A stretch of 64,000 nucleotides of DNA, taken from assembly GCA_016722945.1 (NCBI GenBank), contig JAEQMT010000023.1, positions 310,001 to 374,000 of the forward strand, given 5' to 3'. The position numbers and the translations under genes were made by a program. Shown here in pieces: positions 47,662-50,996 of the stretch (position 1 is its first letter; every line of letters begins with the position of its first letter). This DNA comes from Desulfofustis sp. PB-SRB1. GTDB lineage: Bacteria > Desulfobacterota > Desulfobulbia > Desulfobulbales > Desulfocapsaceae. Under the pieces are notes generated by a model. The model ran no database searches, was not told the origin of the DNA, and saw nothing but the letters and a program-made list of their open reading frames with translations.

Positions 47662-48498
47662 TTAAACCGTCGTTGGGATTGCTACAGATATACGGTTTAA
47701 CGGAGCACCACTTCCTAATACCTGGTGGGCAATGGCTATATGGCTGATTGCCTGCCAGGGACGTCTCAATAGTTCAGCACCGTAGGAATCGATGGCCACC
47801 GGATCGTAAGCCGCCGCCCACCGGCGCGGCGGTGGATCACAGGTGGGTCCCCACAGATGTGCCTGAGTCATCCCCAAAGAACCGTCGAGCAGGGTGAAAT
47901 CTGGTGTCCGGTAGCGGTTGAGATCGGCAATAGCGGGCTGGATATCATCATGAAATGTGGCCTTGCCCCAGCCACCTGAGCCCTGGTAGTAGCGCGGTGG
48001 GACACATCCCATCATGTTTTTCATGGTCAGGGTTACCCCTGCCATGGAGTGTGCCTTGAGTACCGGAACCGAGATGATAAAGCTGTTGAACAGGATTTCC
48101 GGCAGGTACATGGACGGCCAGCGCTGGCAATCGGGGTTTTCCAGGTAGATGAGCGGCTCGGTATTGAGATCCACCAGTCGTGCGCCGGTACGGTGCGCCA
48201 CCTCAGTATAGCCGAGTTCCTCAAAACAGTGAAAGGTGTCATAGCGCAACGAGCCGGTACCCTCACCGATGATGAACGTTTTTCCCCCGCAGTTGCGGGA
48301 AAGATACTCAAGCAGCGCTTCGACCAGCGGCGCCGGCGTGGTTATCGGGGGCGGCAGTGCCTCAACCAGATTCGGTTTGATCAGGATCTGCTCATGGTTT
48401 TGCAGGACAATGGGAAGCCCTGCCATATCAAGCATCCGGTTCAGCGCCGTACCATCCTCACTGGGACAATGGTAGACAATGCCGGTTTTGTCGTTCAT
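47662..48498 (-). CDS. DUF362-family protein (last gene of an activation-like cassette)
   Basis: A 278-residue protein of the DUF362 family (PF04015 as I know it): ILIKPNLVEALPPPITTPAP near the N-terminus, FIISVPVLKAHSMAGVTLTM and KNMMGCVPPRYYQG in the middle, and YDPVAIDSYGAELL near the end, all typical. Some family members carry ferredoxin domains; this one does not. Function is unknown. Its start overlaps the stop of the ASKHA gene by four bases, so the two are coupled. It is probably co-transcribed with fluC, lptG, the HgdB-like gene and the ASKHA gene, in that order. Confidence 0.85.
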   Translation of the reverse strand: MNDKTGIVYHCPSEDGTALNRMLDMAGLPIVLQNHEQILIKPNLVEALPPPITTPAPLVEALLEYLSRNCGGKTFIIGEGTGSLRYDTFHCFEELGYTEVAHRTGARLVDLNTEPLIYLENPDCQRWPSMYLPEILFNSFIISVPVLKAHSMAGVTLTMKNMMGCVPPRYYQGSGGWGKATFHDDIQPAIADLNRYRTPDFTLLDGSLGMTQAHLWGPTCDPPPRRWAAAYDPVAIDSYGAELLRRPWQAISHIAIAHQVLGSGAPLNRISVAIPTTV

Positions 48499-49157
48499 AA
48501 GAGATCCCTTGTCACCATACCGATGGATACCTTCAGTCCCTCAAGCAGTACCCAGCGACCCAGGCACACCACGGTACAGGGAAAGGAGCCGGTAAACAGC
48601 GGGTTTTCGCAGAGCCCGCCGGAAAGGTAAAGGGTGTCGGGACTGCCGGCAAACTGATAGCCATTGAGGGCGATACCCTTAATGAACCGAGCCACCGCTT
48701 CACTTTCACTCTGGCCGTTTACCACCGCATCGAAGATGGCGCTGATGCCCAGCACCCCGCAGGTTATCGGCAAAGAGCGGGGCGGTACGCTCATGGCCCC
48801 GAAATCGAGCTGATAGTAACGCTGCAAAAGCTCGATGGTAAATCCCATGGAGGCCCCGCACTCATCGTTCCACCCCATATCCTTGACCGCGCCGTTCTCG
48901 TAGCGGACAAATTTGATGTCTCTGCTGCCGCAATCAAGCAGAGTGAACGAGGGTTCTTCGATCAATGCCGCCCCACCTCTGGCCAGGGCGGTCAGCTCGT
49001 TGACATAGCGGCCGCCGAAACGCTTGCCGTTGTGACCGGTTGCCCAGTCGGCGCGACGCCCATCGGCGGGCAGGTCGCGCACAGCCACCAGCCGATAGGT
49101 TCCGGTCTCGGTATCCATCAGCTTGGCGTACGAGGTGCCGATATCAGCAAGCAGCAT
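48495..49157 (-). CDS. Compact ASKHA-type ATPase (BadF/HgdC-like activator)
   Basis: A 220-residue protein of the BadF/BadG/HgdC ATPase family, which uses ATP to push one electron into a partner dehydratase or reductase. Phosphate motifs are LLADIGTSYAKL (1-13) and LLDCGSRDIKF (73-83); LYLSGGLCEN (176-184) is the adenosine motif. Cys100 (NDEC) and Cys133 (ITC) match the pair that in HgdC holds a 4Fe-4S cluster across the dimer, though CAAGTG is CGASMG here. It is shorter than HgdC (about 260). It overlaps both neighbours, by 14 bases with the HgdB-like gene. Confidence 0.85.
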   Translation of the reverse strand: MLLADIGTSYAKLMDTETGTYRLVAVRDLPADGRRADWATGHNGKRFGGRYVNELTALARGGAALIEEPSFTLLDCGSRDIKFVRYENGAVKDMGWNDECGASMGFTIELLQRYYQLDFGAMSVPPRSLPITCGVLGISAIFDAVVNGQSESEAVARFIKGIALNGYQFAGSPDTLYLSGGLCENPLFTGSFPCTVVCLGRWVLLEGLKVSIGMVTRDLL

Positions 49158-49911
49158 TGTCTACTCCGCACAGCTCAATAAATGCCTGAATTTTTGCCCG
49201 CCCGCTGTTGGTGGCTGAAACGTCACCGTCCACGAAAAGCGCGCGGGGATGGCGTCGGGCGAGGTGTCTGGCCAGTGCCGTTTTGGCACAGAAGCTCTGG
49301 GCGAAAAACACCATCGGGATGGTGTGGTCGACATGCTCTTCCAGAGCCGGGTTATACGGCGTCTTGTTTTCCATGCAGCGACTCCAGCCAAACACATGGG
49401 TGGTGTCGGGAAACGGTTCCAAGAAAGAGAAATCTCGCGGCGGGACTCCCCAGAAACCGACGGTTGGTGTGCACGGCGGGTGTTGCCGATGCGGCTGCAC
49501 CGATTTAACCGAAGCGGTGATTGCTTCGAGCTTGGCGACCAGCGGCATCCTGGTGGTGCTGACCGGAGTGCCGAAATCATCGCAATCAAGATTTGTGGTG
49601 CGGATAATGTGCGTGCCCGGTAGGGCATCGGCGAGAATGATCGCCACATGTGATGCGCAATCACATTTACCGGGGCCGGTGTCGATATAAATTGCTTCCA
49701 GGTTCAGCCCCATTGCATTAATTACGGCGGTGCGCAAAATCGCGCAATACACCTTGGGTAATAGTTCGCCGGCATCGTCGATGGGTCGGCGCAAAAGCGG
49801 CTCGTCCAAATCAAAAATCACGCATCCGCGGGCGTTCAGCTCGGCAATCACCTGGCGCGGCGGCATGCCGATAATACCCACCTGCGGTTTGTTCTGGTTA
49901 TCGGTAAGCAT
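49144..49911 (-). CDS. HgdB/2-hydroxyacyl-CoA dehydratase-like short protein, with an internal duplication
   Basis: A 255-residue, cysteine-rich (ten Cys) protein. Two copies of a VGxxGxPPR motif occur (residues 11-19 and 151-159). The C-terminal LFVDGDVSATNSGRAKIQAF resembles the DxDxxxxxxR-IEAF ending of HgdB-type D-components, which carry iron-sulphur clusters activated by BadF/HgdC ATPases, and the ATPase gene lies right downstream. CDC (83-85) and others may hold a cluster. It is much shorter than the 370-430 residues of the family, so the identity is inferred. It starts three bases before the lptG stop. Confidence 0.55.
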   Translation of the reverse strand: MLTDNQNKPQVGIIGMPPRQVIAELNARGCVIFDLDEPLLRRPIDDAGELLPKVYCAILRTAVINAMGLNLEAIYIDTGPGKCDCASHVAIILADALPGTHIIRTTNLDCDDFGTPVSTTRMPLVAKLEAITASVKSVQPHRQHPPCTPTVGFWGVPPRDFSFLEPFPDTTHVFGWSRCMENKTPYNPALEEHVDHTIPMVFFAQSFCAKTALARHLARRHPRALFVDGDVSATNSGRAKIQAFIELCGVDNAAC

Positions 49912-49913
49912 AC

Positions 49914-50996
49914 TCAGCGATCCTGGTTTCTCAGAAGATAGATACCCGCCGCGGAAAAGACAATATGGACGGTCAGGGCAGCCGGCAGCGCCATGATGTA
50001 GCCGGCGGTGGCAAAGGATTGCAGCGCCCCGTAGATCCCCCAGGCAACAAAGGCCATGACGCAGCTGATGGGGATGGCAACCGAGAGATCCTTGCCCCAG
50101 GTCTGGTAGCTCAGCATCAGGATCGGCAGACCAAGCAGCAGCAGCGGGATACCTAAAAAGAGATACGAGAGCCGTCCGTAAAACTCGGCGCGGGCCTCCT
50201 GTATACGATATGGCGCCTCCTGGGCGTGGATATTCTTGTACAGGGCGGTAAGCGATTTATCGTTGATTTCATATTCGGGAACGAGGAAATCCTCGGGGGT
50301 CTCCGGCAGCTTTACGGTGCTTATTTCAAAGGGAAAGTCGACGATGCGGCCATCTTTGGACCGGTAGATTTGCCTGCCATTTTTCAAAATCCAGTGTGGT
50401 GGCACCCAGTCGGCAAATGCCACCGAAATTGTTGATTGTATATTGTAGTTTTCATCCCATTCGGAATAGGAAAAGTCCTTGAACACCATGTTCTTGCTGT
50501 TGGGCCACTGAAATGAGTAAAAGCCCTCCTGACCCTTGTAATAATAGCGGCCATTGCGGTAGATACCCAGCGGCACCTTGCCCCGCACCTGCTCAAACCA
50601 GATGTTATTCGTTCTGGCGATGGTAGAGGGTAGAACAAACTGCGCCATGGCGATAAACATACCGACAAAGATTATCGAGATCAGCAGCAGCGGTCTAATA
50701 ATTGTTCGCAGCGGAATGCCGGCCGCTTTCAGGGCGATCAACTCGTTACTGTGGTTGAGAATGCCAAGGGTGATCACCCCTGAAAGCAGGATCAGGATCG
50801 GATTGATCAAGTCCACCACGTAGGGGATGTTGAACAGGAAAAATTGCAGAACAAGGGATAATGGTTTGCCCGCCTCATCAAATTCGTCGTACTTCTCAAA
50901 AAAATCGATTAGAACATACAGGGCCACGAAGGCCACATTGAGGATAAAGAAATACCGGATAAACTGGCTGATCAAATAACGATTCAACAGGGGCAT
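49914..50996 (-). CDS. lptG: LPS export permease LptG (YjgP/YjgQ family)
   Basis: A 360-residue inner-membrane permease with three N-terminal and three C-terminal membrane helices around a periplasmic beta-jellyroll domain (about residues 120-260). The opening LLNRYLISQFIRYFFI and NHSNELIALKAAGIPLRTII (coupling-helix region, about 80-100) are typical. It works with LptF and LptB2 to lift lipopolysaccharide, so the cell has an outer membrane. LptF is not in the window. It lies 13 bases after fluC and 2 bases before the HgdB-like gene, all on the minus strand. Confidence 0.93.
   Translation of the reverse strand: MPLLNRYLISQFIRYFFILNVAFVALYVLIDFFEKYDEFDEAGKPLSLVLQFFLFNIPYVVDLINPILILLSGVITLGILNHSNELIALKAAGIPLRTIIRPLLLISIIFVGMFIAMAQFVLPSTIARTNNIWFEQVRGKVPLGIYRNGRYYYKGQEGFYSFQWPNSKNMVFKDFSYSEWDENYNIQSTISVAFADWVPPHWILKNGRQIYRSKDGRIVDFPFEISTVKLPETPEDFLVPEYEINDKSLTALYKNIHAQEAPYRIQEARAEFYGRLSYLFLGIPLLLLGLPILMLSYQTWGKDLSVAIPISCVMAFVAWGIYGALQSFATAGYIMALPAALTVHIVFSAAGIYLLRNQDR

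Follow-up and report, generated by a model that had tools for sequence, protein, structure and literature searches.

A conserved, unannotated gene pair predicted to encode a minimal ATP-driven electron-activation system

HgdC-type proteins are known partners of D-components, and the ATP-driven electron-activation systems that they form reach, to our knowledge, the lowest potentials known in biology. In E. coli the D-component-like YjiM (383 aa) and the HgdC-like YjiL (255 aa) are encoded by an adjacent pair with the yjiM gene first, an order shared by the two genes described here, designated A and B. TudS (4-thiouridine-5'-monophosphate desulfidase) consists of one domain only, and we know of no ATPase partner for it. 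The DCCP system combines an ATPase carrying a bridging [4Fe-4S] cluster with a homodimeric electron-accepting partner, the arrangement proposed below for A-B, and the physiological role of DCCP is unknown (PMC11971306). In the benzoyl-CoA reductase BzdNO, the [8Fe-9S] cluster of BzdN is held by Cys 36/73/100/263/293/327 and the single [4Fe-4S] cluster of BzdO by Cys 95/128/380, and new functions in the family have been argued to have arisen through sub-cluster loss (PMC11971306). Gene pair A-B is a conserved unit without annotation that may represent a minimal version of these systems, some of which (DCCP, YjiLM) lack a known role.

Layout and distribution of the gene pair

The locus was analysed in a stretch of 64,000 nucleotides from Desulfofustis sp. 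PB-SRB1 (the window). Downstream of lptG lie three overlapping minus-strand genes, A, B and C (Table 1), as described in an earlier note made from the sequence alone; when coordinates, strands and overlaps (14 bases, then 4 bases, the latter reading ATGA) were rechecked, all proved exact. A-B and lptG are probably carried on one transcript. No acyl-CoA degradation genes were seen beside A-B in the window.

Table 1. Positions in the window of the genes and of the predicted cluster cysteines.
Feature	Position	Strand	Description
Gene A	49144..49911	-	255 aa; predicted Fe-S protein resembling a compact D-component with two domains
Gene B	48495..49157	-	220 aa; short HgdC-type ASKHA ATPase / activase
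Gene C	47662..48498	-	278 aa; DUF362 protein; facultative neighbour, outside the core
lptG	49914..50996	-	upstream neighbour; 2-base gap to A
A/B overlap, 14 bases	49144..49157	-	A and B also overlap in 56/71 related loci
B Cys100	48858..48860	-	predicted [4Fe-4S] ligand; aligned with HgdC cluster Cys; invariant
B Cys133	48759..48761	-	predicted [4Fe-4S] ligand; aligned with HgdC cluster Cys; invariant
A Cys56	49744..49746	-	equivalent of BzdN Cys73 / BzdO Cys95 (PMC11971306)
A Cys83	49663..49665	-	equivalent of BzdN Cys100 / BzdO Cys128 (PMC11971306)
A Cys179	49375..49377	-	near the BzdN Cys293 equivalent; alignment one residue off
A Cys208	49288..49290	-	equivalent of BzdN Cys327 / BzdO Cys380 (PMC11971306)

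Within the class, which comprises anaerobes of the sulfur cycle, the pair is near-universal: A was found in 153 of 193 genomes, those listed without it belonging mostly to genera of the window's own family (f1), and B orthologues were present in 39 of 58 relatives (E < 1e-80). The pair has been lost in parts of that one family, and these natural losses make its function testable. Among 297 genomes sampled phylum-wide, 24 carried A, 13 of them in two families outside the order (f31 and f53), where A is ~35-52% identical to that of the window and the pairing with B is kept; in f53 the linkage holds with A and B at ~35% and ~50% identity, respectively. Linkage was scored in 71 loci that had been found through A or B alone, with one contig (L022/L131) counted twice. 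A and B lie on the same strand, separated by at most 100 bases, in 70 of the 71; at the sole unlinked locus (G024, L028:7443-10319) a PMT_2 transferase gene and a GT2 gene sit between them. The upstream gene is lptG in most loci of the order but not in f31 or f53, and no constant neighbour pointing to a substrate was found across the A-B loci. In f53 the pair is followed by a gene for a metallo-beta-lactamase-fold protein (L076-L082) and, at some loci, also by one for a DUF6811 protein.

The window's genome yielded no further match to HGD-D and, at E 0.001, none to PF01869, so that the two proteins would work with one another. Replacement of A by a full-size HGD-D protein was considered and rejected, such proteins being both present and absent in genomes with A and in genomes without it. 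Spread of the pair by viruses or plasmids was likewise dismissed, no relative having been found.

Relationship of the two proteins to activators and D-components

Judged by its sequence, protein B is homologous to HgdC, DCCP reductase and MbdP/MbdQ. Searches with phmmer matched it to HgdC (1hux, E 1.3e-7) and to 7yyl, which we take to be DCCP reductase (E 4.5e-7), and a profile of B matched 7yyl at E 7.2e-10; similarity to YjiL extends over 151 columns (26% identity, E 2e-8). Matches to TIGR00241 (E 1.1e-7, 31.6 bits against a cut-off of 125.4) and PF01869 (19.1 bits against 31.5) fell below the family cut-offs. At the positions of the two HgdC cluster cysteines B has Cys100 and Cys133, both invariant in 54 sequences, and the ASKHA phosphate and adenosine motifs are conserved (D5-x-G7-T8...K12, D75-x-G77-x-x-D80 and S179-G180-G181), bearing out the earlier observation that this short protein keeps both cysteines and its phosphate motifs.

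Sequence searches assigned protein A to no Pfam or NCBIfam family and revealed no significant PDB relative. The HGD-D family (PF06050) gave no match to the window's A; it matched the N-terminal half of 4 of 20 A members, the best match among A relatives (L022) having E 0.0062 and 16.6 bits, below the cut-off of 28.4. In HMM-HMM comparison with 31 HgdB/DCCP-type (HGD-D) proteins of relatives, the profile of A aligned end-to-end and colinearly, skipping the middle of the template, with a score of 29.3 (maximum of 120 column shuffles, 27.8; reversed profile, 15.4). Compared separately, with 100 shuffles each, both the N-terminal half (29.1; shuffles at most 23.2) and the C-terminal half (23.5; at most 21.7) matched the expected domain, so that the HgdB-like C-terminal end noticed previously is real and the resemblance reaches the N-terminal half as well.

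The HGD-D templates have six conserved cysteines, the spacing of which fits the [8Fe-9S] ligands of BzdN. Four cysteines of A, C56, C83, C179 and C208, are invariant across 55 sequences or absent only at fragment ends. Of these, C56, C83 and C208 match template cysteines two, three and six, which correspond to the proximal [4Fe-4S] ligands of BzdO (C95, C128 and C380) in the class I benzoyl-CoA reductase BzdNO/BzdPQ and to those of HadB, and the distance from C56 to C83 is 27 residues, as between C73 and C100 of BzdN. C179 lies one residue off the fifth template cysteine, the fourth is paired with C147, which is common in A without being invariant, and no cysteine occupies the position of the first double-cubane ligand. 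Because of this cysteine count, A was rejected as a full DCCP, which has six cysteines per subunit for its [8Fe-9S] cluster where the much shorter A has four that are invariant.

The large alignment gap in the middle of the template leaves the helical intermediate domain of D-components without a counterpart in A, which has 255 residues as opposed to 376 in BzdN and 442 in BzdO. A and B are both shorter than YjiM and YjiL, with the middle domain missing from A; YjiM and A share the motif order LPR-x-x-C ... CD. A is thus most likely a compact D-component as far as alignments can tell; it would fit the pattern of sub-cluster loss, and it may show which parts of a D-component are dispensable.

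Proposed mechanism and alternative readings

Reading A-B as a reductive-activation system is likely, and we put at about 0.62 the probability that the pair is a minimal ATP-driven system for electron activation, made of two components and of the same kind as benzoyl-CoA reductase I, 2-hydroxyacyl-CoA dehydratase and DCCP. From the observed adjacency, conservation, motifs and half alignments we infer a role in electron transfer, and the clusters, ATPase activity, electron flow, dimers and target class are all proposed on that footing. B would dimerise round one [4Fe-4S] cluster with Cys100 and Cys133 of each subunit as ligands. With ferredoxin or flavodoxin as its electron donor, it would use ATP hydrolysis to deliver the electron to A at low potential, as expected from its family. 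A, probably a homodimer, would hold one [4Fe-4S] cluster between its two alpha/beta domains through Cys56, Cys83, Cys208 and possibly Cys179 as a fourth ligand, and would reduce a substrate or partner. BzdNO and the 2-hydroxyacyl-CoA dehydratases are heterodimers that act on CoA esters and possess a helical domain at the CoA channel; since A lacks this domain, which helps to bind CoA in BzdNO, a CoA thioester is an unlikely target.

That A might be an unrelated cysteine protein with a chance resemblance to D-components, and B an ASKHA protein in another role, would be consistent with the low HMM-HMM probability of A as an HGD-D protein (7.9%) and with the unusable AlphaFold models of A and B, built from three-sequence alignments, at pLDDT 48.7 and 36.5; it is nevertheless improbable, since each half of A matches the right domain above all shuffles with the cluster cysteines aligned, and A is strictly linked to an HgdC-type protein. 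A function in cell-envelope lipid or LPS chemistry, such as reduction of an isoprenoid or sugar-lipid, is suggested by the position of lptG, which immediately precedes A at most loci of the order, by UppP/BacA adjoining A in two f53 loci and B in G033, by the transferase and GT2 genes within the G024 locus and by an ABC transporter pair downstream in f31 that reads like LolCD. Envelope genes are common, however, and none is constant here; lptG is kept in genomes without A-B, and the f53 neighbours also include the metallo-beta-lactamase and DUF6811 genes, leaving this reading very doubtful. Equally hard to sustain is an obligate A-B-C system in which C handles the substrate or acts as a third redox component. 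C is a DUF362 protein, as the earlier note had it (PF04015, E 1.7e-40), its gene overlaps the pair in the window, and it adjoins B in families f1, f4 and f12, but beyond the window this holds for only 9 of the 71 loci. Among 58 relatives C was found (E < 1e-80) in 18 of the 39 that carry B and in 12 of the 19 that lack it, and genomes having both A-B and C mostly carry C elsewhere. Eight f1 genomes lacking A-B at this site have lptG-C-FKBP followed by Smr and RelA, the window's order minus A-B. The fixed three-gene cassette proposed earlier was therefore rejected on distribution and synteny, and C is not required for the A-B system; the gene order recurs in other genomes for A-B but not for the trio, and the notion of a miniature reductive-activation system survives for the pair of HgdC-like ATPase and D-component-like partner only.

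A possible partner is a RACo-family protein (PF14574, 2e-96) whose gene stands near lptFG-A-B, in opposite orientation, in ~40 of the 71 loci. It retains the middle and linker regions and lacks the ferredoxin domain, and A-B could be a repair or priming system in which A, without turnover of a small substrate, passes electrons on to a single client protein, such as a corrinoid protein that this neighbour serves. The absence of a CoA-channel domain from A would agree with such a role, as would the nesting of the RACo-like protein (E 1e-145) within A-positive genomes: 117 genomes of the class have both, 36 have A only, 36 have neither and 4, each at most 85% complete, have the RACo-like protein only (Fisher p 9e-15, with related genomes not independent). 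Against it, the RACo-like protein was not found at 1e-145 in 36 of the 153 A-positive genomes, the window's included, although in two of these (G040 and G053) it is split in two pieces. A link to the Wood-Ljungdahl corrinoid protein was rejected, CdhD (PF03599) being present with and without A-B. As a partner the RACo-like protein is thus suggestive but not required, and the repair or priming reading is rather unlikely. Less likely still is a composite in which B charges A and A replaces the missing ferredoxin domain as donor to the RACo-like ASKHA protein and a corrinoid or other client; if true, it would constitute a chain of two ASKHA ATPases from different families. The minimal two-component system remains the preferred reading of A-B.

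Several minor observations concern these neighbours. The RACo-like protein has ~515 aa and is encoded beside crcB/lptFG in L022, L032, L146 and ~37 other loci; in one genome (G044) both A-B and the RACo-like gene are present twice, at L032 (G044:C33) and L033 (G044:C27). The Pfam clan of C also holds the lactate racemase LarA (PMC11770544). In the DUF362 subfamily formed by C (47662-48498) and 28 relatives, two cysteines, C124 and C220, are invariant, and outside f1 the gene often lies near one that reads like a PEP synthase regulatory protein.
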